Source: Candidatus Harrysmithiimonas galli
GTDB lineage: Bacteria > Bacillota > Bacilli > CAJFEE01
Length of the DNA: 64,000 nt
Direction: 5' to 3'
NCBI GenBank assembly: GCA_904373265.1
Contig: CAJFEE010000007.1
Coordinates: 1-64,000, forward strand
The notes beneath the pieces were generated by a model. It was not told the DNA's origin and did no database searches. It saw nothing but the letters and a program-made list of their open reading frames with translations. This document shows, one piece after another, positions 51,411 through 62,376 of the stretch; within the stretch, counting starts at the first letter, position 1, and each line of letters opens with the position of its first letter. The translations under genes were made by a program, and so were the position numbers.

Positions 51411-52947
51411 ATATCCATACATCCTATGTTACGGTTCAACGAGATTGCCCAGTTATGCGGAGCCAATGTCCGTGAAATTTCAATACATCCTATGTTACGG
51501 TTCAACGGACTAATCCAGATGCTAATGTAACAGGTAATCAAAATTTCAATACATCCTATGTTACGGTTCAACCCTATCGTCAATCGACACTAAGAGTTAT
51601 GTTGGAGAATTTCAATACATCCTATGTTACGGTTCAACAAATAAAATAAAAGGAATTTTAAAAATACAGCAAGAATTTCAATACATCCTATGTTACGGTT
51701 CAACTAAATTCGCCTTTCTCACTTTTGCATTTTCTTCCAATTTCAATACATCCTATGTTACGGTTCAACACAAAACCATTCCTATCCTCTGGAAATTCAA
51801 GAGGATTTCAATACATCCTATGTTACGGTTCAACCACGACCCTATCTACTGGGAAAGAAACAAGGTTGTATTTCAATACATCCTATGTTACGGTTCAACT
51901 TAGCCATTTCTGATAAACTTGTAATCTCAAACATAATTTCAATACATCCTATGTTACGGTTCAACCGCGATGTACCCGATCTGTTTGGTCAGCGTTTTGA
52001 TATTTCAATACATCCTATGTTACGGTTCAACATATTCTGGCATTGGCAAACCAGAACCGCTAAAAGATTTCAATACATCCTATGTTACGGTTCAACTTAC
52101 ACATATCGTTTTTTATAACTTTAAATTTAACCATTTCAATACATCCTATGTTACGGTTCAACTTTTAGTCGCTGTGTTGTTAATTCGATGTTTTCAGATT
52201 TCAATACATCCTATGTTACGGTTCAACCTCTTGTGTTGGCTCCGCTTGTCGTTAAGGTCACGGATTTCAATACATCCTATGTTACGGTTCAACAATGACC
52301 TGGTTGCTTGTAAAATCTTCGTTTTTGTATTTCAATACATCCTATGTTACGGTTCAACATCTTCCCTGTATTTAGCCCAAGAATCTAAAGAAATTTCAAT
52401 ACATCCTATGTTACGGTTCAACCTAATTTATCAGCCGGAAAAACTATTGGACTAACAACATTTCAATACATCCTATGTTACGGTTCAACAACTATAAAAA
52501 ATATTATATTTACCTATCCCCTTCATTTCAATACATCCTATGTTACGGTTCAACCTCTTTCCTATAACTTTCACAGGCTATGGCAATTAAATTTCAATAC
52601 ATCCTATGTTACGGTTCAACAACCACGGTAATACCTCAAAACGCGAATCAAAAAAATTTCAATACATCCTATGTTACGGTTCAACATCTCTCACAGCAAT
52701 ACCATGCAAATAAAAAAGATAATTTCAATACATCCTATGTTACGGTTCAACAGGTGGGAAATGTCATAGAGAAGTTATATTTATACTATTTCAATACATC
52801 CTATGTTACGGTTCAACACTGTCTCCCAAACAGATACAGGCATTTCTTTTTGGATTTCAATACATCCTATGTTACGGTTCAACCCTGTGTTGTAAATGGA
52901 ACAAAGATTGCTGTTGCATTTCAATACATCCTATGTTACGGTTCAAC
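51411..52947 (-). CRISPR. Type I-B CRISPR array, 24 repeats and 23 spacers
   Basis: Twenty-four 30-bp repeats with 23 spacers of 34-37 bp. Read on the minus strand, the repeat starts GTTGAACCGTAACATAGG and ends GATGTATTGAAAT, giving the AUUGAAAU handle typical of type I-B and III systems. All repeats are identical as far as I can see, except the last (51411-51440), which has two changes; this marks the leader-distal end. The array is transcribed leftwards, in the same direction as the cas operon just upstream (cas2 ends at 53122). Confidence 0.98.
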
Positions 52948-53121: not shown

Positions 53122-53409
53122 TTATAAAATTAAAGATTCTCCATTTTCTCGTTTATTTCCTAAAATTTCTTCTCCGAAAACTGTTTCATTCATCATTTTA
53201 ATCATACATACAAAATCTTCCTCTTTATCAATGACTCTTTTTAAATCATTTCTCAGCGCAATCATATTTGATGGTGTAATTTCACCACGAAAGACAGATT
53301 TCTGGAAATGCGATAAATATTTCTTACAAATCTTAAAAACCTTCTGCACACGTTTCTCATTGACATCATAAAACAGAAACATATAATTAAAATTTATATT
53401 TTTCTTCAT
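53122..53409 (-). CDS. cas2: CRISPR adaptation endoribonuclease-like Cas2
   Basis: A 95-residue ferredoxin-fold protein that forms the integrase with Cas1. MFLFYDVNEKRVQKVFKICK contains the conserved strand with the aspartate, and HFQKSVFRGEIT the second conserved strand. ATG 53409 overlaps the cas1 stop (TGATG) and has AAGGAG eight bases before it. Last gene of the cas operon, next to the CRISPR leader. Confidence 0.94.
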   Translation of the reverse strand: MKKNINFNYMFLFYDVNEKRVQKVFKICKKYLSHFQKSVFRGEITPSNMIALRNDLKRVIDKEEDFVCMIKMMNETVFGEEILGNKRENGESLIL

Positions 53410-54413
53410 CACAGATTCTCCTTTAAGTCAAATGGTTTAAAATCCTGCCCTTCCATAATCATCTTAATGAGCTTATATGCATCCAGTTTCATCGCTGTTT
53501 GATAACTAATTTTTCTTTTCAATTTTTTATGTGTAAAAACAGATTGCAGTCGCGCTTCAAACGCTTCAATAAAAATATCTCTTCCTTCTTCATTGAGCAA
53601 ACAATAGTTTACTTTTTTATCAAAATGCTTTTCAACTTTCAAACGTTTTCGATTGACCAATTCAAAAATCGTACGATACACAATGACTGGTTTAAATGCC
53701 TCACTTAAATCCAGGCTCAACGAAAATCTACGTTCAGATGGATCATGTAAAAAACTAATACGTTGATCCAAATGTGTACGATAGATGGCAGAGATCATCT
53801 TTGTATACAACAGCATATTCCCAAATGAAATCAATGCATTCATAGGGTTATCCGGCGGACGCTTCACTCTTTTATTTAATATAAAATCCTCTGGCAAAAA
53901 ATAGACCAAAGAACGGTAGAAACCTTCCCATAAATTTCCTTCATAGGCCATAATCTCAGGAATAGAATTTGCGGTCTTCACAGCTTCTGAAAAATCTTGA
54001 TGGATCCAATCCAAAAATGGTTTTAAATCAGATTTTCCATGTCTATAATAATGATACAATGCTTCATAAATATTTTTCCCAATTCCTAAAACAATGGATT
54101 TTGCAATTTTTAAACGCCGCACGGGATCTTTAAATGTTTCCACCTGCTTAATCAATACTTTCCCACTGTTATATTGATTTTTAGGATAGAATGTCCCTGT
54201 ATAACCTTTATAATAATGAAAAAAATGAACCACAACATGGTTTTGAGATAAAAAATCAAGCAATTTTGTATTGATACTCACCTCATTTAAACAATAAATT
54301 TCCTTTGTATTCTCAATTGGGATGTACACATTTTTCCCATTCTTTCGAAAGCAAATTGAATGGTCTTTTCTTGTCAATTCGCCCATTGAACGAATATATT
54401 TTGTCGTTCCCAT
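53409..54413 (-). CDS. cas1: CRISPR integrase Cas1 (type I-B)
   Basis: A 334-residue Cas1. The beta domain (KYIRSMGELTRKDHSICFRK) is followed by the helical catalytic domain with YEGNLWEGFYRSL (the glutamate of the active site), the PPDNPMNALISFGNMLLY helix and LHDPSERRFSLSLDLSEAFKPVI (histidine, aspartate). Inserts spacers at the leader end with Cas2. I choose ATG 54413; an in-frame GTG four codons upstream is possible. Follows cas4 by 27 bp. Confidence 0.95.
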   Translation of the reverse strand: MGTTKYIRSMGELTRKDHSICFRKNGKNVYIPIENTKEIYCLNEVSINTKLLDFLSQNHVVVHFFHYYKGYTGTFYPKNQYNSGKVLIKQVETFKDPVRRLKIAKSIVLGIGKNIYEALYHYYRHGKSDLKPFLDWIHQDFSEAVKTANSIPEIMAYEGNLWEGFYRSLVYFLPEDFILNKRVKRPPDNPMNALISFGNMLLYTKMISAIYRTHLDQRISFLHDPSERRFSLSLDLSEAFKPVIVYRTIFELVNRKRLKVEKHFDKKVNYCLLNEEGRDIFIEAFEARLQSVFTHKKLKRKISYQTAMKLDAYKLIKMIMEGQDFKPFDLKENL

Positions 54414-54440
54414 GCCTTTTTCCACCCTTCATGATAAAAA

Positions 54441-54932
54441 TTAAATATAGCAATATTCATAGTACGCACATTTCTTACATTTTTTTGCATGTATGATTGG
54501 CGGGACATCCTCACTTTGAACCAACTTTTGAATTTCTTCTATATATTGTGCAAGCATTTCTTCATTTTCCTTCGTTAATTCAAAAACCAACACTTTTTTC
54601 GTTTGTTTCTTCTTTTCAATAAATTCCAGTTTCCCCTTCCGTTCCAAACCCTTGTCTTTTAAAACCTTTAAATAGAACATAAGCTGCCATTTTGCCGCCT
54701 CTACATCTGCATCTGATTTTTTAATTTCTGTTACATATTCCTTTCCCAATTTATCCACAACAATGGACTCAATATGAATGTCATCTGCTTTTTGTGCATG
54801 CAATATTTTCCCCATTTGTACATGCTGGCTATTCTCTTCTAGGTTGAGTTTATGCATAGACAAGTAGCATTGCCTTTTGCAATGAAAATAATAATTGATT
54901 ATCGTACCAGTAACATTTATCAAATGATTCAC
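54441..54932 (-). CDS. cas4: CRISPR-associated exonuclease Cas4
   Basis: A 163-residue RecB-type nuclease that trims prespacers and sets PAM orientation during adaptation. One cysteine of the iron-sulfur cluster lies near the N-terminus (FHCKRQCYLSM), the others at the C-terminus (KKCKKCAYYEYCYI). VTEIKKSD and AAKWQLMFYLKVL are the nuclease motifs II/III and QXXXY. Ends 27 bp before cas1 and starts 4 bp after cas3. Confidence 0.93.
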   Translation of the reverse strand: MNHLINVTGTIINYYFHCKRQCYLSMHKLNLEENSQHVQMGKILHAQKADDIHIESIVVDKLGKEYVTEIKKSDADVEAAKWQLMFYLKVLKDKGLERKGKLEFIEKKKQTKKVLVFELTKENEEMLAQYIEEIQKLVQSEDVPPIIHAKKCKKCAYYEYCYI

Positions 54933-54936
54933 CCCA

Positions 54937-57531
54937 CTAATAAATAAAATCTACATTTCTGACAAGATTCAGCTTCCCCTCTTTAAAATAATTCTCCCGA
55001 TCTGCAATATAATAAATTTCACCGACTTGTTCATCATAATAGGCAATGGCAGCCATTGAAGGCAGTTGATATAAAAAATAATTCATTTTTGCCCGGATTG
55101 CAGCAAGCTTCACCTTCTTCTTTGCAAATGAAATTTGCTCATTTTCCAACAGTTGAACATAGGTATCCCAAATTTCTTTCCCGTAAAAAACTTCACCCGT
55201 TTTCTCATCTATAATTTCTCCATTAAAGAACACCCAAATCAATTGACGATTATCTTCAATTAATTCCATACGTTTGGCAATCCCAGCGTAGTCAAGCAGC
55301 ATCAATTCATCTTCAAAAAACTTTCTCAAGCCTTCTGGCCCCCATGAATCATTGAAATTATTTTTCAAACTTTCCATAATCAGATCATAATAGTCCGAAA
55401 ACCGTTTTTCATTCAGAATTTCTTGCATCTTGACTTGTTCCAACAAATAATCTGAGCTAATGCGCACATCTTTGTGATAAACTTTACTCGGCTCATCTAC
55501 TTTAAAAAAATACACCCTACCCAATTTTTTCCCTGAGCGATTGATCCGTCCCAAAAATTGTTCTTCGCTATCCAGTTTAGAAATATTCTTATACCCAATA
55601 TCCATATCAATGTCTATACCCGCTTCAACAACCTGTGTTGCAATCAAAATTAAACCATTTGGTTGTTCTGAAGTTACTTCTTTCAAAATACGGTTGCGTT
55701 CAATGAAACTATCATCGCCAGTCATTAATTCTATGACACATTCTAATTCTTCATCTTCTTTTAAAAGCTGAAAAAAATTTACTGCTGTTTTCTTACATAT
55801 AAATTCAACCAAAATCTTCCTGTTCTTTTCCACTTGCTCTGCAATATGTACATGCAGAGTGTCCATATCTACTTTTTGCTCTAGCAACTCAAAATTCAAT
55901 TGAACTCGTTTTTTAAAAATCGGATGAGCAAAATATTTTTCACGATTGTCAACAAGATGTGTACAAATATGATCATTATTCATATACCTCGAATATATCT
56001 CGCTTTTTTGGTTTAATAAGTATGTAAAATCTGGCAATGTTGCTGACATCACAATAACTTTGCAATGAAATAATTTAGAAAACGCTTCCAAAAATAAGAT
56101 GATCTCCGTCCAAATTTGGTTTTTATAGCTTTGAATCTCATCTAACACAATGACACTATTTGCAATTTGGTGAAAGGCAAACGCTGACTCACGACGCACA
56201 CCAAATAAAATATCAAACAAACTCACATGTGTTGTTAAAACAAATGGATAATTTAAAAACTGTCGATCAAGCAAAATTTTTTCGTAATGTTCTGTATACA
56301 TTTCTTCCTCTTTGAGTTTTTGATCATATCCCTTTACTTTCATTGGCGTCAATGCATTTACAACCGCAATCTGCTGAAATAATTCCGGATTGTTTCCAAA
56401 TATTTTCTCCAGGTTATTTAAATTTTGTTCAACCAATGTGTTAAACGGATAAACGTACAAAATTTTGTTTAACTCTGTTTTTTCCTGAATCAGCTTGAAA
56501 CTACAATTGAAAGCAACATTGCTCTTTCCACTTCCAGTTGGTGCCTCAATAAAAAATATAAGGTCGTCCATATGCCGTTCCAGCTTCGATTCAATATCTA
56601 AAAACAATTCATTTCGCAAAACAAAAATATCTTTCTCATTTGGAGAAACTTCTATTTGCTTGTACCGCTCTTTTTCATACTTACGAATTTGCTGCAAGAC
56701 CGTTGTTTCTTGATAAGCTTGCTGGAAAGTGGCGATATCCGCCAAATTACCAAAATCGTGGATTTCCACATCATTCATATATGCAGTTGTAGCATAATAA
56801 TCCGAAGCGATAAGCAACGAGAACAAAAATCGCAAATATCCAGATAAAAATAAAGCTTTTTCAGGTGTATTTTTTCTTAAACGAGAATCCACTGTCCGAC
56901 ATATTTTTTGCATTTTTCCCCATTGGAGCTGCGACTGAAATAAGTACAAATCATTTTGTTGTAATTTTTCGCCACTTATTCTCATCGTACCATTTGTAAA
57001 TTTTTCTAAATAATTCTGGAATGCCTGTAACGATCCATGATGCTTGCTAATTAAGTAAGCATATAAAAATACAAACGGGAGAAGCAAACCTTTTTCCTTT
57101 TTTTCAAGTACTTTTAAATTTGTCATAAAATAATCTATATATATCAATGAGGATAAATTGGAATGTTTTGAGCCTTCTTTTAAAAAATCTTGAAAATGAC
57201 CTTTTAAATGATGATCCATTTTCTCACTTTGAAACTGGGGATTAATTTTTCCCAAATCATGGAAAGTAATTACATTTGCAGTCATCCGATAAAAAAATGT
57301 CCGTCCCGAATCCGACAGTGACTGTTCGAAATAATATGAAAGAAATCGATCAAAAACTGGAAATAACTGTTTTTTCTCAATGAGTTCCAAAAAATACATT
57401 TGGCATTTTTTTGTATGTGCTTGTAAAGTTTCTTTTTGATTTGTTTCTTTTTGCCGATGTGCATAAAATATATACTTTTGTGCATTGATACAATCTGCTA
57501 TGTCAACAAAATCTGTTTGCCTAAAAGCCAT
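54937..57531 (-). CDS. cas3: CRISPR nuclease-helicase Cas3
   Basis: An 864-residue effector that unwinds and degrades target DNA after Cascade binding. The N-terminal HD nuclease has VITFHDLGKINPQFQ (His-Asp at 91-92). The helicase follows with EAPTGSGKSN (Walker A), VIVLDEIQSY (DEXH-type box), VMSATLP and GRINRSGKKLG (motif VI). Both activities look intact. ATG 57531 follows GGGGGTGTAATT; a longer frame to 57552 would start inside that site. It is preceded by a hairpin that may attenuate transcription from the Cascade genes. Confidence 0.95.
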   Translation of the reverse strand: MAFRQTDFVDIADCINAQKYIFYAHRQKETNQKETLQAHTKKCQMYFLELIEKKQLFPVFDRFLSYYFEQSLSDSGRTFFYRMTANVITFHDLGKINPQFQSEKMDHHLKGHFQDFLKEGSKHSNLSSLIYIDYFMTNLKVLEKKEKGLLLPFVFLYAYLISKHHGSLQAFQNYLEKFTNGTMRISGEKLQQNDLYLFQSQLQWGKMQKICRTVDSRLRKNTPEKALFLSGYLRFLFSLLIASDYYATTAYMNDVEIHDFGNLADIATFQQAYQETTVLQQIRKYEKERYKQIEVSPNEKDIFVLRNELFLDIESKLERHMDDLIFFIEAPTGSGKSNVAFNCSFKLIQEKTELNKILYVYPFNTLVEQNLNNLEKIFGNNPELFQQIAVVNALTPMKVKGYDQKLKEEEMYTEHYEKILLDRQFLNYPFVLTTHVSLFDILFGVRRESAFAFHQIANSVIVLDEIQSYKNQIWTEIILFLEAFSKLFHCKVIVMSATLPDFTYLLNQKSEIYSRYMNNDHICTHLVDNREKYFAHPIFKKRVQLNFELLEQKVDMDTLHVHIAEQVEKNRKILVEFICKKTAVNFFQLLKEDEELECVIELMTGDDSFIERNRILKEVTSEQPNGLILIATQVVEAGIDIDMDIGYKNISKLDSEEQFLGRINRSGKKLGRVYFFKVDEPSKVYHKDVRISSDYLLEQVKMQEILNEKRFSDYYDLIMESLKNNFNDSWGPEGLRKFFEDELMLLDYAGIAKRMELIEDNRQLIWVFFNGEIIDEKTGEVFYGKEIWDTYVQLLENEQISFAKKKVKLAAIRAKMNYFLYQLPSMAAIAYYDEQVGEIYYIADRENYFKEGKLNLVRNVDFIY

Positions 57532-57550
57532 AATTACACCCCCAAAATAC

Positions 57551-57589
57551 AAAAGCCACTTTCTACCATTTTGGAAAAAAGTGGCTTTT
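57551..57589 (-). terminator. Intra-operon hairpin between cas5 and cas3 (attenuator)
   Basis: A perfect 12-bp stem, AAAAGCCACTTT with AAAGTGGCTTTT, in the 61-bp gap between cas5 and cas3. On the minus strand the stem ends in TTTTGTATTTTGG. It should end part of the transcription, lowering expression of cas3 and the adaptation genes relative to Cascade. Confidence 0.7.
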
Positions 57590-57592
57590 TAT

Positions 57593-58339
57593 TTAATAAA
57601 AAGTCAGAATACGACCACCTACCGAATAAGCCACTTTTTTTCGTTCGCTTACTTTCATATTGGTCAAAACAAAAGTCTTTACTTCATATAAATTGGTCTG
57701 TGCATTTAATGCAACAGGCAATTTTTCCTCATATTTATACGGATTCATATCTTCTTCATCTTCATCGTAATCATCATAATCCGGAAAATGAATGGCAAAA
57801 TCCTGCTTTAAAAATAGGCTGTCCAATCGTTCTGGTTGTTCATATCTTATGACATCTGAAAAAATTTCTACATCTGAAATGGATGCCAGATGATCATTTT
57901 TCCCTAAATATGGAATAAAAATGCTTTTCCTAATATTTAAATAATCTGCTAGCTTCTCACTTTCTTCACAAGCAACTTGTACATAAATATCCCATGCTGG
58001 ACTTTCCAACCATTGCTCCCTAACCACAAGATTCCCACCTTGTTCTTGTGAAGCATAACCAACCGAATTGTTAAAAACTTGAATTTTTTTGGGAAATACG
58101 CCACCTACAGCCCCAATTGGAACCACAGATAGCTGCAAATTCTTTAATCGTTCATAAAACGCTGGAAACATCTCGTCTTTTTTTTGCTGTGCATACCCCC
58201 CATAACCAAGGATTGCTCCAAATAAACCGAGCAATGCAATTTTATGCAAGTGACCATATGTAAAATAAAAATACGTGTTGACATCTGGTTTTTTAAAAAA
58301 GGCTGTTTCTCCGCTTAAACGAAATTTGAGCACTCTCAT
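57593..58339 (-). CDS. cas5: CRISPR Cascade protein Cas5 (type I-B)
   Basis: A 248-residue RAMP protein that holds the crRNA 5' handle. The N-terminal LKFRLSGETAFFKKPDVNTYF and IALLGLFGAILGYGGY are the Cas5 signature; a run of aspartates and glutamates (DYDDYDEDEEDMN) lies near residue 200. Two bases separate it from cas7. Followed by the intra-operon hairpin. Confidence 0.92.
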   Translation of the reverse strand: MRVLKFRLSGETAFFKKPDVNTYFYFTYGHLHKIALLGLFGAILGYGGYAQQKKDEMFPAFYERLKNLQLSVVPIGAVGGVFPKKIQVFNNSVGYASQEQGGNLVVREQWLESPAWDIYVQVACEESEKLADYLNIRKSIFIPYLGKNDHLASISDVEIFSDVIRYEQPERLDSLFLKQDFAIHFPDYDDYDEDEEDMNPYKYEEKLPVALNAQTNLYEVKTFVLTNMKVSERKKVAYSVGGRILTFY

Positions 58340-58341
58340 GT

Positions 58342-59286
58342 TTAAACCTCTTTTTGTGTAAAAATATGGTATTGTTTGACATTCTCCACATCCGTTTTGA
58401 TTTCGGTTGTGTTTGGATTATAATAAATTTCAACCTTTTGAATCTGGTTTTGCAATGAATTCAGCAGCCCCCCAATAGAAAAACCAATCGTATTTTTCTC
58501 CTCACCTTTTTCAAATTCCATATAAGCAGACAAATTCGGTAAATATACATCTGGATCGGTTTCCACAAATAAAGCAAATTCATTTTCACAGCCAATTTTG
58601 GCATTCGTTGCAAAAGCTGTAGCACTTTTTAAAGCGACCGCTTTAAATTTGGCATAATCGTCTTCGGTATAACCGTCGGTTACTCCCAACTCTTGATATT
58701 CTTTATATGCAAGTGGATTGACCACAAACGGATAAAAATAATGCGCTTCATTGCTGACTATTTTCGTTCCAAGTGTAGAATTCTTCGCTTCTTCTGAATT
58801 TTCTTTTTTATCTTTTGTTCCATCACGAAACGGGGATAAAATTTGCTGTTCTTCTGGATTGGTATCGGCATAAAAATTCAATCCTTGACCAATTTGTACT
58901 GCCCCAGTAATGGAAATATTTTTCTTTTTTGCTGCAAAAGTGGCACCAAAATTTTTCACATCAATTGCACAAAACAGATTTTCCAATATTTCCTTGGCAG
59001 ACGTATTCTCCAAATCTGGTACATTGAATAAATATTCGTATCGTTCACTTAATGTACGGGGAACAAGATTCACTCCACCCTTTTTCTCTGTGGATAGTTT
59101 GAAAGATTTTATGTATAAAACTTTCTCACCCTGATCTTCCCACATTTTCTTCATAGGATATTTCAAAGCTTTATCGCTTCCAAACGTTGTCCCATCTGAA
59201 AGGGTTTTCGGATATCCACTAAAATCCGCATTCCAATTTGATAAAATCGAAGAAATTCCAATTATTCCATACACTCTTTTATTCAT
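58342..59286 (-). CDS. cas7: CRISPR Cascade backbone protein Cas7 (type I-B, Cst2/DevR type)
   Basis: A 314-residue protein that forms the Cascade filament along the crRNA. RVYGIIGISSILSNWNADFS with GYPKTLSDGTTFGSDKALKY is the Cas7/DevR start, and FSIGGLLNSLQNQIQKVEIYY the end. It overlaps the end of cas8b by 8 bp, so the two are coupled, and stoichiometry would be helped by its own ribosome binding site (GGAGGAAA). Confidence 0.92.
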   Translation of the reverse strand: MNKRVYGIIGISSILSNWNADFSGYPKTLSDGTTFGSDKALKYPMKKMWEDQGEKVLYIKSFKLSTEKKGGVNLVPRTLSERYEYLFNVPDLENTSAKEILENLFCAIDVKNFGATFAAKKKNISITGAVQIGQGLNFYADTNPEEQQILSPFRDGTKDKKENSEEAKNSTLGTKIVSNEAHYFYPFVVNPLAYKEYQELGVTDGYTEDDYAKFKAVALKSATAFATNAKIGCENEFALFVETDPDVYLPNLSAYMEFEKGEEKNTIGFSIGGLLNSLQNQIQKVEIYYNPNTTEIKTDVENVKQYHIFTQKEV

Positions 59287-59674
59287 TTTCTATTTCCTCC
59301 TTTTTTTCGTAGAACAAATTGCTATGCAAAAAACCATTAATTAACATACTTCGGTCAACGATATGACTTCCCGGTTCATATGCTGTTGCCATAGCGTACA
59401 AATGATTGAAACGTTTTTCATATATCGTAATGTCATAGTTGTATTTCATATATAATTTCTCCAGTTTTTCTTTTAAAAGTCGATCGGTTTTCACAGTTAA
59501 AAAGCCGTTTAACAAAGATTGTGGAATCTTTTTGCTTTGACTTTTTGAAAATAAGTAATAAATCAATTGTCCTACTACAAAGTAATATTCATGATCACTC
59601 TGAATTTGGTCTGTTTCTTTCGCATACATCTTTTGTTTCAAATTTTTCTTTATTTCATTAACCCGGTCCCCCAT
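59279..59674 (-). CDS. cas11b: Cas11b small subunit from an internal start in cas8b
   Basis: Inside cas8b, in frame, the codons for EGGENM provide GAAGGAGGAGAAAAT followed by ATG 59674, a near-ideal ribosome binding site with correct spacing. It would give a 131-residue all-helical protein, MGDRVNEIKKNLKQKMYAKE onward, of the size of Cas11. In type I-B and I-D systems the small subunit is known to come from internal translation of the large-subunit gene. No separate small-subunit gene is present in the operon, which supports this. Confidence 0.8.
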   Translation of the reverse strand: MGDRVNEIKKNLKQKMYAKETDQIQSDHEYYFVVGQLIYYLFSKSQSKKIPQSLLNGFLTVKTDRLLKEKLEKLYMKYNYDITIYEKRFNHLYAMATAYEPGSHIVDRSMLINGFLHSNLFYEKKEEIENE

Positions 59675-61027
59675 ATTTTCTCCTCCTTCAAAATAAATTT
59701 TTAATGAAAGCCATAAATTAAATTGATGTGCAGCTTTCTTTACATTTCCTTTTAGTAAAGAATTCCTTAGCAATAAAAATACAACCTGATCATATAGACC
59801 TCGAAATAATACAGCATTTCCCTTATATAACCATTCAAACAAGCTATCTCTTGTCAGCACAAATAGCTGCTTTTCTATTGAATCTTTCAGCGGAACATCT
59901 TTTGCTGGTGTAAAATAATTGTTGGATAAAAAAGGAAATAAATATTTCTCCAATAGATCTTCCATTTCCCGACGTTTCCAAATGGACCCATATGGGTAAT
60001 CTTCCAACCTTTTTATATGTAAATGATTATTCTGCTCAAAAGATTTAGATAATTCCTCATAATAACCAGAAATCACATCAAACCGATGAATCTCTGCTCC
60101 TTCCTTCCCTTTTTGAATGCGCAAAAAATAGCCGCTAAAATGCGCTGGGCATTTCCCATCTTGATAAGACTGAATGGTTGCTGTATCTGGATCAATATAG
60201 ATATTAAATTCTCTTCGATCAGCGAAGCTTAACAAATACTCAAAAAATTCCAGTTGCAAAATGGCTTCTTTGATTGAGATTAAGTACGGAATCTTTGTTT
60301 TGCGACTTTTGTTTTCCAAAAACGGTTTTTTATCATTCATGCTCATATTTTGATTTGGCAAACCCAAAATACCAGTCTCAGTTTTTATGTTAAAATCATT
60401 TTTATTGTAAATCGTTGGATAGAGATATCTTTCAAACTCTTGCTCATACACCGCCAACGGAAATTCAAAAAATATTTTCAAATAATCTTTTCCTTCTATT
60501 GCACACCACTTCTCCAAAGAAAAAATATTTTGCAGTATCCACGTTTTAGCTTTCTCCAAACTTGTACAATCAACTGGACCATTCTTTTCTTCAAAAGCTT
60601 GATAAAGCTCCAATGACTTCGATTTCTTAGCATACTTTACTGAAAAATCTTTTAATGTATCATAATAATTTACAATCCCTTCAGACGTTAACTTGCCGCC
60701 TTTTAGGCTCTCTTTTTTCACAAAAAACGAGCAATAATTGTTGCTGTGAATGATCTTTTGTTTATCTACAGGCTTATTCATATCTCGCAACTTACTATAG
60801 AAGTCATACCGACAAATATCCCGAAATTTAGGATTGGCTCTGGCTGCCAATTCTTTTGCTTTTTTATCTTGTTTCACTTCAATGATAGTTGGCTCACCAA
60901 AACCATCATCTTTAACCGGAACCAAAAGATAACTGCCATCTACAGGAATATAATTATCAAAAATCAGCGCCATTCCTTTTTGTTTCAATTCCTGTTCAAA
61001 CACTTCTAAGCAATCTTTTAGCATCAT
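59279..61027 (-). CDS. cas8b: CRISPR Cascade large subunit Cas8b
   Basis: A 582-residue type I-B large subunit (Cst1/Cas8b1-like) that recognises the PAM and recruits Cas3. Identified mainly by position between cas6 and cas7 and by size; the sequence starts MMLKDCLEVFEQELKQKGMA and has SYLLVPVKDDGFGEPTIIEV. The last about 130 residues are helical and are probably also made separately as Cas11b from an internal start (see next entry). Begins 9 bp after cas6. Confidence 0.88.
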   Translation of the reverse strand: MMLKDCLEVFEQELKQKGMALIFDNYIPVDGSYLLVPVKDDGFGEPTIIEVKQDKKAKELAARANPKFRDICRYDFYSKLRDMNKPVDKQKIIHSNNYCSFFVKKESLKGGKLTSEGIVNYYDTLKDFSVKYAKKSKSLELYQAFEEKNGPVDCTSLEKAKTWILQNIFSLEKWCAIEGKDYLKIFFEFPLAVYEQEFERYLYPTIYNKNDFNIKTETGILGLPNQNMSMNDKKPFLENKSRKTKIPYLISIKEAILQLEFFEYLLSFADRREFNIYIDPDTATIQSYQDGKCPAHFSGYFLRIQKGKEGAEIHRFDVISGYYEELSKSFEQNNHLHIKRLEDYPYGSIWKRREMEDLLEKYLFPFLSNNYFTPAKDVPLKDSIEKQLFVLTRDSLFEWLYKGNAVLFRGLYDQVVFLLLRNSLLKGNVKKAAHQFNLWLSLKIYFEGGENMGDRVNEIKKNLKQKMYAKETDQIQSDHEYYFVVGQLIYYLFSKSQSKKIPQSLLNGFLTVKTDRLLKEKLEKLYMKYNYDITIYEKRFNHLYAMATAYEPGSHIVDRSMLINGFLHSNLFYEKKEEIENE

Positions 61028-61036
61028 TACACCTCC

Positions 61037-61732
61037 CTATTTCCACTTGACATTGACAAATCCACTGCCCCTAGCGTTATTTCCCCCTAAGCCTACACCT
61101 AATGCAAAATGAGCCAAAATTTGGGCAGAAGAATGTTCAGAAATTTTCAGTTCTAATTTATCCCCAAGTAAAATAATATTTTTTTGTTTTACAGCAATTG
61201 GCTTACGATTGGAAAAAGTAATGGAATTTGTCCATGTGAAATTTTCATCCAATTTTTTTCCAGTGGACTCATTATATTTTTTGACAAGATTAATAAAAAG
61301 TTGATTTTCATATTCTGATAGGGTCATCCAATCTCGCCAATAGCCTTTATCATTCTTTAACACAACCGGTGTAATGGAGTAGAGACGATCAATCGGACGA
61401 TAAGGGACAGTGCGAATTTCTGTAGATTTTCCTTGTAGTAAAGAGCTTTCATGATGTGATAAAACGCGGTCAAAATATATCGCTAAGTCTTTCTTAATGG
61501 TACGAATGGTTAAAGTATATGGCTTGCCCACTTGATAAATTTTATTGCTCTCCATCGGGTACAACTGATCAAAGCAATAAAACTTAAATCTTCGTTGATG
61601 ATGTAACTCGCCAATACTTTCATCAAAAAATAAAGATGAATCCATAAATTGAATTAATGCTTGTTGTAATACTTCCCACAAAAGTTCTTTTTTGGGCAAA
61701 ATCTTACAACGAATTTGAAAAACATCTAACAT
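61037..61732 (-). CDS. cas6: CRISPR repeat endoribonuclease Cas6
   Basis: A 231-residue RAMP nuclease that cuts the repeat to give crRNAs with an 8-base handle. MLDVFQIRCKILPKKEL opens the first ferredoxin fold, and the C-terminal LGVGLGGNNARGSGFVNVKW is the glycine-rich loop of Cas6. A histidine pair near residue 44 (GELHHQRR) may include the catalytic one. GGAGGTGCTGT precedes ATG 61732. First gene of the cas operon; it probably also supplies crRNAs to the type III complex, which has no cas6 of its own. Confidence 0.93.
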   Translation of the reverse strand: MLDVFQIRCKILPKKELLWEVLQQALIQFMDSSLFFDESIGELHHQRRFKFYCFDQLYPMESNKIYQVGKPYTLTIRTIKKDLAIYFDRVLSHHESSLLQGKSTEIRTVPYRPIDRLYSITPVVLKNDKGYWRDWMTLSEYENQLFINLVKKYNESTGKKLDENFTWTNSITFSNRKPIAVKQKNIILLGDKLELKISEHSSAQILAHFALGVGLGGNNARGSGFVNVKWK

Positions 61733-61764: not shown

Positions 61765-61793
61765 ATTGTAATTTATTAAAAAGTAGCTTTCAA
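61765..61793 (-). promoter_or_regulatory. Promoter of the type I-B cas operon
   Basis: Minus strand TTGAAA (61793-61788), 17 bp, TACAAT (61770-61765), 33 bp before the cas6 start codon. Confidence 0.7.
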
Positions 61794-62016
61794 TCATTTT
61801 TATAACTTCTATTTCTATTTTATATTAAAATATATTTTCAGAAAATAATATCTAAATAAACAATTGTATCACACCCTCTAAAATATAAGAACTAAGATGC
61901 TGTCTACTTCTATCAAATAAAACAAAAATAAGCTGCTTCTAAAAACTTTTACACCGCTTGCTTTTCTTCTTTCATAGATCCCGAATCCATCTTTAAAGAA
62001 ACTTTCATGTTTCATG

Positions 62017-62061
62017 TTAAAGTACAGGTATTCTACAGCAAAATGAGATAAATAGTTTCAT
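62017..62061 (-). CDS. creT: CreT-like 14-codon toxin ORF
   Basis: A tiny ORF, MKLFISFCCRIPVL, with an excellent ribosome binding site (GAAAGGAG, six bases before ATG 62061). It has its own strong promoter about 95 bp upstream, and that promoter is matched by the pseudo-spacer of the crRNA-like gene at 62250. In the CreTA modules known from type I-B systems, CreT is a very short ORF or RNA with strong translation initiation; in Haloarcula it acts by trapping a rare tRNA. AGA-ATA codons occur in tandem here at positions 10-11. Whether the peptide or the RNA is toxic cannot be read. The name is by analogy. Confidence 0.65.
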   Translation of the reverse strand: MKLFISFCCRIPVL

Positions 62062-62140
62062 TTTAGTCTCCTTTCTTTGATTTTTAATGATTATAAATAT
62101 AAAAATATTTTAATGACAAAAAGCAGCCAACAAATTCTCG

Positions 62141-62167
62141 TATGTATTTTTAAATTATATCAGAAAG
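62141..62167 (+). promoter_or_regulatory. Protospacer for the CreA-like RNA over the creT promoter
   Basis: Plus-strand sequence TATGTATTTTTAAATTAT (62141-62158) matches positions 1-18 of the pseudo-spacer with one mismatch, at position 6; the remaining 9 positions do not match well. It covers the -10 box and the predicted start of creT. The 5' flank is CTCG, so TCG would be the PAM. A seed-plus match of this kind should let Cascade bind without triggering Cas3 cleavage. Confidence 0.8.
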
Positions 62168-62182
62168 AACTGTTTTTTGCAA
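62154..62182 (-). promoter_or_regulatory. Promoter of the creT-like ORF
   Basis: Minus strand TTGCAA (62182-62177), 17 bp, perfect TATAAT (62159-62154) with an extended TGA just before it. Predicted start near 62147. Confidence 0.8.
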
Positions 62183-62183
62183 C

Positions 62184-62221
62184 AAAAAAGCAAGTGCCAA
62201 ATTCGTTTTTTAGCACTTGCT
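62184..62221 (-). terminator. Terminator of the CreA-like RNA gene
   Basis: AGCAAGTGC pairs with GCACTTGCT around a 15-base loop and is followed on the minus strand by six thymines. It lies 28 bp after the second degenerate repeat and directly abuts the creT promoter. Confidence 0.88.
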
Positions 62222-62249
62222 TATTAAAATATATATTCCAACAATATTC

Positions 62250-62336
62250 ATAAAAATACATCCAATGTTACGGTTCAACAAAAATATAATAATTTAAAAA
62301 AACATAATTTAAATACACCTATGTGTTAGGGTTCAT
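62250..62336 (-). ncRNA. creA: CreA-like solitary crRNA gene (degenerate repeat-spacer-repeat)
   Basis: Two degenerate copies of the array repeat, in the same orientation as the array, flank a 27-bp spacer (62280-62306), shorter than the 34-37 bp of the real array. The upstream copy on the minus strand (62336-62307) keeps the 3' handle as ATTTAAAT; the downstream copy (62279-62250) keeps the 5' part GTTGAACCGTAACAT exactly and has decayed only where it is not needed for this one crRNA. It has its own promoter and terminator. Cas6 cutting would give a single crRNA whose spacer matches the adjacent creT promoter. This is the hallmark of the antitoxin RNA of CreTA modules. Confidence 0.82.
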
Positions 62337-62347
62337 TACTATCTTAA

Positions 62348-62376
62348 ATTATGCCAGGATTCTTTTCTGATTTCAA
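62348..62376 (-). promoter_or_regulatory. Promoter of the CreA-like RNA
   Basis: Minus strand TTGAAA (62376-62371), 17 bp, CATAAT (62353-62348) preceded by an extended TG motif. Transcription would start near 62341, a few bases before the first degenerate repeat. Confidence 0.75.

Follow-up and report, generated by a model that had tools for sequence, protein, structure and literature searches.

Locus architecture

The window, a stretch of 64,000 nucleotides from Candidatus Harrysmithiimonas galli, carries a complete type I-B cas operon in which cas6 occupies 61732-61037 on the minus strand, followed by a CRISPR array. Upstream of cas6 lies a module of 360 bp that contains, in one orientation, a promoter-like site, a degenerate repeat, a 27-bp spacer (psiS), a further repeat, a terminator, a second promoter-like site, a Shine-Dalgarno (SD) sequence and a 14-codon ORF (Table 1). 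An earlier note had read these parts from the letters of the DNA, and all were found where it had put them. Its statement that the module lies within 360 bp upstream of cas6 was accurate for the length, although the module ends 284 bp short of the cas6 ATG (61732). As in CreTA members, a multi-subunit type I effector, with Cas6, is encoded beside the module.

Table 1 Features at the putative creTA module and in the adjoining cas region (positions and strand of the window)
Feature	Position	Strand	Details
creA promoter-like site P1	62348..62376	-	TTGAAA-17-CATAAT; 10/12 consensus; TG before second hexamer
psiR1, degenerate first repeat	62307..62339	-	last 8 nt are the predicted 5' handle
psiS, CreA pseudo-spacer	62280..62306	-	27 nt
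psiR2, second repeat	62250..62279	-	first 22 nt are the predicted 3' handle
Intrinsic terminator between creA and creT	62184..62222	-	14 pairs and T tail
PcreT, likely repressed promoter-like site	62154..62182	-	TTGCAA-17-TATAAT; TG before -10
Protospacer of psiS	62141..62158	+	psiS positions 1-5 and 7-18 identical
TCG flank, putative PAM	62138..62140	+	matched relatives carry TCA or TCG
Second promoter-like site in creT leader, alternative creT promoter	62090..62119	-	TTGTCA-18-TATAAT; 11/12
creT mini-ORF	62017..62061	-	14 codons, MKLFISFCCRIPVL; SD AAAGGAG at 62074-62068
Predicted stem-loop over mini-ORF end	61980..62036	-	-10.9 kcal/mol, z -1.70; 8/200 shuffles as good
45-aa ORF after creT stop	61881..62015	-	starts one base past creT stop; no SD
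Promoter-like site adjoining cas6	61765..61793	-	TTGAAA-17-TACAAT; not matched by psiS
Type I-B cas operon	53122..61732	-	cas6-cas8b-cas7-cas5-cas3-cas4-cas1-cas2
CRISPR array	51411..52947	-	24 repeats

Six more arrays, sharing this repeat exactly or almost exactly, were located on contigs C2, C6, C7, C13, C27 and C34 of the same genome (records L119-L125), and cas1 had one match in the genome despite these further arrays. Isolated intact repeats were also present on contigs C7 and C29.

Cas8b was found in five of 398 genomes of the host's class, its own included, with the other four at 24-39% identity. Two protein relatives reached 61% and 59% identity, and the nearest named relatives are Clostridia. 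Among plasmid records the best Cas8b relative reached 36% identity and the creTA region had no match, and IMG/VR contained no Cas8b relative. The scarcity of Cas8b in the host's class, together with the clostridial source of its nearest named relatives, suggests that the CRISPR-Cas system arrived horizontally.

A crRNA-like creA outside the array

The repeats that enclose psiS differ in how they depart from the array repeat. psiR1 has indels in its first part, and its handle is identical to the array repeat at 7/8 positions. psiR2 matches at 26/30 positions overall, with 21/22 in the first 22 positions and 5/8 in the last eight. The fit of psiR1 to the repeat scored 18.1, whereas the best of 1000 shuffled versions of the 676-nt intergenic region scored 17.0. 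This divergence follows the published asymmetry of creA: according to excerpts of PMC8501985, most two-repeat creA genes keep the 5' handle of psiR1 and the first part of psiR2, and an excerpt of PMC9458426 describes psiR1 as usually the more diverged of the two. Mature CreA is described in PMC8501985, again in excerpt, with an 8-nt 5' handle and a 22-nt 3' handle. The predicted mature guide (8-nt handle, 27 nt and 22 nt) agrees with the Cas6-processed RNA that the earlier note had anticipated at 62314-62258. Like the creA of CreTA members, the predicted gene is crRNA-like, with degenerate repeats outside the array.

Terminators of the kind at 62222-62184 were expected 0.1 times in shuffled sequence, compared with the one found, and by this terminator creA and creT would form separate transcription units. 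Promoter-like sites are common at this locus (11 found versus 5.5 ± 2.9 expected).

The pseudo-spacer matches the predicted creT promoter

The match between psiS and its protospacer extends to position 18 (k = 18), with a sole mismatch within this stretch at position 6; among positions 19-27, one place only matches the target. The protospacer covers the -10 element of PcreT, the second promoter-like site of the module. A promoter-spacer match had been proposed as a check in the earlier note, and psiS does match the putative creT promoter next to a TCG flank. As in CreTA members, psiS is partly complementary to a flanked site at the creT promoter with position 6 free, the identity of the PAM being deduced from relatives. 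According to PMC8501985, nucleotides 6 and 12 of type I-B CreA take no part in pairing.

The 2.7-Mb genome contains four sites with the psiS seed and a TCN flank, of which only 62141-62158 reaches 18 (12, 12 and 13 for the others); a reversed control pattern occurred three times. Within the 64-kb window no other non-self match of psiS exceeded k = 12 when every sixth position was ignored, and none of k at least 10 lay elsewhere within the 950 bp that surround the start of cas6. Spacers of the window, C2 and C27 arrays were compared with phage records as a source for the PAM; the one microvirus match obtained was weak (89.7%), with ATT as its flank and mismatches close to its start, and was not used.

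These observations bear on the view that the repeats are the remnant of a decayed array with no regulatory role, the promoter match being a coincidence. Other isolated, mostly intact remnant-like repeats do occur in the genome, both psiS and its target have a high AT content, and shuffling the local region produced a match of 18 in 10 of 20,000 trials when no PAM was demanded. However, the mismatch falls only at position 6, the flank is PAM-like, the terminator is dedicated, and the same architecture recurs in relatives (see below). Moreover, the divergence of psiR1 and psiR2 follows that of creA repeats, whereas the array repeats are almost all intact. We therefore consider a remnant highly improbable.

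The length of the guide was compared with the behaviour of another type I-B system which, according to excerpts of PMC10551041, represses with crRNA spacers of up to 26 nt and cleaves with longer full matches. psiS, at 27 nt versus 34-37 nt for the array spacers (22 measured), is one base above this limit, which comes from another species' system. Since the pairing of psiS ends at about position 18, repression rather than self-cleavage would be expected.

The site at 62119-62090, absent from the earlier note, is the best-scoring promoter-like site and lies between the target and the mini-ORF. Were creT in fact transcribed from this site, repression would require Cascade to work 19 bp upstream of the site's -35 element.

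The predicted creT gene

creT, as in CreTA members, has a strong translation start followed by a mini-ORF; 77 of 5000 shuffles contained such an SD-ATG mini-ORF by chance. A hairpin is a further trait of CreT RNAs. Here a predicted local stem-loop covers the end of the mini-ORF (Table 1), but leader and ORF taken together folded no better than shuffled sequence (z +0.76). A start-codon hairpin like that of CreT from Acinetobacter WCHA45 (PMC10097628, in excerpt) was sought and not convincingly present, the folds (z +0.21 and -1.12) being no better than shuffles. A 7-base inverted repeat encloses the creT AUG, and inverted repeats of at least this length enclose 1.5% of 2690 ATGs.

In archaeal CreT the mini-ORF doubles a rare codon, AGA or AUA, that is read by one rare tRNA; the present mini-ORF has neither doublet. 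It contains adjacent Cys codons, TGC TGT. Across 43 window proteins, with 14,564 residue pairs, Cys-Cys occurs once, and the draft genome yielded 37 tRNA genes, one of them for tRNA-Cys, although rRNA-linked tRNAs may be missing from it. A same-box doublet no commoner than Cys is found in 0.9% of 13-codon gene windows and in 3.3% of random frames. Because the Cys-Cys pair was noticed post hoc, and because a comparable doublet occurs in 3.3% of random frames, we treat it as a lead and not as evidence.

Alternatively, the 14-aa peptide or the product of the 45-aa ORF could be a small protein toxin under Cascade repression, by analogy with CrePA (Shu et al. 2025, as summarised in part in PMC12737573), in which a small gene is likewise repressed by Cascade. 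The two ORFs are adjacent, the second beginning one base past the first stop, and protein-coding genes (67, 71 and 146 aa) occupy the same place in some relatives. Nevertheless, neither ORF resembles a recognisable protein toxin: the 45-aa ORF is without an SD, had no Pfam match and no homologue within what was searched, and the 14-aa peptide had no homologue in the fetched related loci. A protein toxin at this locus is therefore improbable.

Guides and targets in related type I-B loci

To place the locus among its relatives, 61 loci, mostly from Clostridia, were fetched by Cas8b alignment. Six were left out, as L005, L024 and L048 had no cas6 ORF and L010, L011 and L040 too little upstream sequence; 56 loci were analysed, comprising 55 relatives and the window. 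In each locus a repeat-like psiR1 was sought upstream of cas6, and then a match nearby to the bases that follow it. Under the strict rule, which set no PAM requirement, every sixth position was disregarded and the match had to reach at least 13. The window was among 21 of the 56 loci with strict matches, flanked by TCA in 18 and by TCG in three. As a control, 9143 pretend spacer starts were tried in those same upstream regions: 0.05% passed with TCA or TCG as the flank, and 4.0% when no PAM was demanded, the latter partly from array repeats in some regions.

Since the strict rule itself tolerates mismatches at sixth positions, the search was repeated unmasked, demanding at least 14/18 identical positions and skipping matches beside array-like repeats. 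Matches were obtained in 28/56 loci (22 TCA, one TCG and five without TCA or TCG), and 39 of the 64 mismatches fell at positions 6, 12 and 18. Of 812 pretend starts, 105 reached 14/18, three of them with TCA or TCG. The matches of L004, L017, L019 and L036 were taken as chance, having no TC-type flank, and that of L036 is a terminator hairpin; the match of L028 is flanked by CCA. For L054 the unmasked match differs from the strict target, and L022 and L003 were not found by the unmasked search. The design of the window module recurs in related type I-B loci, which the earlier note had proposed to compare for conserved promoter-spacer matching.

A relaxed search that demanded a TC, TT or CC PAM was applied to 41 loci unmatched by the strict rule (two of these without upstream sequence). 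It gave matches in 11, none of which was counted among the strict 21: six with TCA (L003, L027, L036, L044, L045 and L047), two with TCG (L053 and L060), and one each with CCA (L028), CCC (L055) and TTG (L017).

The targets differ in what they precede. In 16/21 strict loci the stretch from target to cas6 is free of any SD-led ORF, an arrangement like that of CreR in which the guide appears to aim at the promoter nearest cas6, and in L016, L029, L030, L034 and L042 the protospacer runs up to the -35 element of a promoter-like site. The target precedes an SD-led ORF in 5/21 (the window, L002, L032, L012 and L022); L002, L012 and L032 were scored by script and L022 by eye, as its SD is further off. 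An opposite-strand protospacer is common to the window, L002 and L050, and in L002 it stands before a small ORF.

Several of these intervals contain genes of their own. Lys-rich ORFs lie between target and cas6 in two Clostridium species (L002:9020-9127, 36 aa; L032:9097-9219, 41 aa) and are candidates for further creT or creP genes. In Clostridium tetanomorphum (L012:8971-9171) the target precedes a 67-aa HTH_11 gene, followed by cas6, so Cascade may repress a regulator there; L058 has an ORF 42% identical to it upstream of its own cas6. In an uncultured Lachnospiraceae (L022:8764-9201) the gene between target and cas6 encodes 146 aa and had no Pfam match, and an ORF upstream of the L018 cas6 is 71% identical to it. 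In Anaerovorax odorimutans (L039) one pseudo-spacer has two TCA-flanked targets, 108 and 386 bp upstream of cas6, one before cas6 (k = 20) and one before a 71-aa gene (k = 13) that is DUF3791-like below the Pfam cut-off. From these matches, it is possible that the L039 guide is double-acting.

The commoner arrangement among relatives frames the main rival to a CreTA-like module, namely autorepression of the CreR type by read-through, in which transcription from PcreT would run through some 415 nt of leader into the cas genes and Cas levels would be tuned by the guide. The mini-ORF would then be incidental or encode a leader peptide. CreR (Liu et al. 2023, as outlined in part in PMC12737573) is likewise a crRNA-like guide beside the cas operon. 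A terminator scan between creT and cas6 found none, the 16 strict relatives without an SD-led ORF have this layout, and the target-to-cas6 distances of L012 and L022 are long too. In contrast to CreR, however, the window target lies 408 bp from cas6 and precedes an SD-led mini-ORF, and the promoter-like site nearest cas6 is left unmatched. The target is also on the opposite strand, unlike in 18/21 strict loci. Autorepression is less likely than the CreTA reading, though it carries enough weight to be kept in view.

Discussion

Taken together, these results lead us to favour, with some confidence, a model in which the locus is a CreTA-like module, a new member of this group, whose creA guide represses creT, probably a toxic RNA. 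The halves of the pair advanced in the earlier note fared differently. The CreA half stood and is strongly supported by sequence, with the asymmetry of the repeats, a promoter match that is unique in the genome at its length, and the relatives all in its favour. The CreT half did not stand as firmly: it comprises a mini-ORF with a strong SD and a possible local hairpin, and had no homologue in the fetched loci. Guide-directed repression of the predicted creT promoter is well supported, and by analogy with characterised modules the CreT transcript is probably a toxic RNA.

By the same analogy, the creA transcript would be cut by Cas6 to about 62314-62258 and carried to PcreT by the neighbouring type I-B Cascade, where pairing of about 18 nt would block RNA polymerase and leave the DNA intact. 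Were Cascade lost, PcreT would open, CreT RNA would be made and the cell might be poisoned, toxicity being a candidate property of this RNA.

The characterised CreTA modules comprise two archaeal systems and one bacterial type I-F system, as counted in an excerpt of PMC10097628 (2023). The archaeal modules, of Halobacterium hubeiense and Haloarcula hispanica, belong to type I-B, as does the locus described here; by the excerpted account in PMC8501985, H. hubeiense creA likewise lies upstream of the cas operon, with psiS enclosed by two divergent repeats, and archaeal CreTA likewise has a PAM-flanked target at the creT promoter and a mini-ORF led by an SD or start codon. Matched positions are 1-5 and 7-11 in those modules, whereas here they continue to 18, with position 6 free in both, and the flank is TTC there versus TCG here. 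Unlike archaeal CreTA as described there, creA lies upstream of creT and has its own terminator, and the mini-ORF carries no doubled AGA or AUA.

The CreTA of Acinetobacter WCHA45 (type I-F), as far as the excerpts of PMC10097628 describe it, resembles the present locus in being bacterial, in its long pairing between psiS and target and in a psiR2 that is closer than psiR1 to the array repeat. Its SD-led mini-ORF is 33 bp long versus 45 bp here, and it differs in having a CC PAM, hairpin repeats and a mini-ORF divergent from creA. Judged by titles and the opening of abstracts, no paper returned by literature searches for CreTA and CreR describes this locus or guide loci of Clostridium-type I-B systems, though an earlier listing in a primary paper or supplement is possible.

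A bolder combination, which we consider quite unlikely, would join a new toxin logic, in which ribosomes stall at the adjacent Cys codons of the strongly initiated 14-codon RNA and tRNA-Cys is sequestered, to a mini-CRISPR slot upstream of cas6 that, within this I-B lineage, has been re-aimed repeatedly between the cas promoter, as in CreR, and the promoters of small genes, as in CreTA or CreP.

The CreTA-like locus in the window brings type I-B into the bacterial cases, and its guide and target form a complete, testable pair. The combination of a TCA or TCG flank with mismatches that pile up at positions 6, 12 and 18 offers a filter for finding more such loci. Moreover, since the related loci share one guide slot that is mostly aimed upstream of cas6 and sometimes at small genes, the interchange of autoregulation and addiction becomes directly testable in this family.
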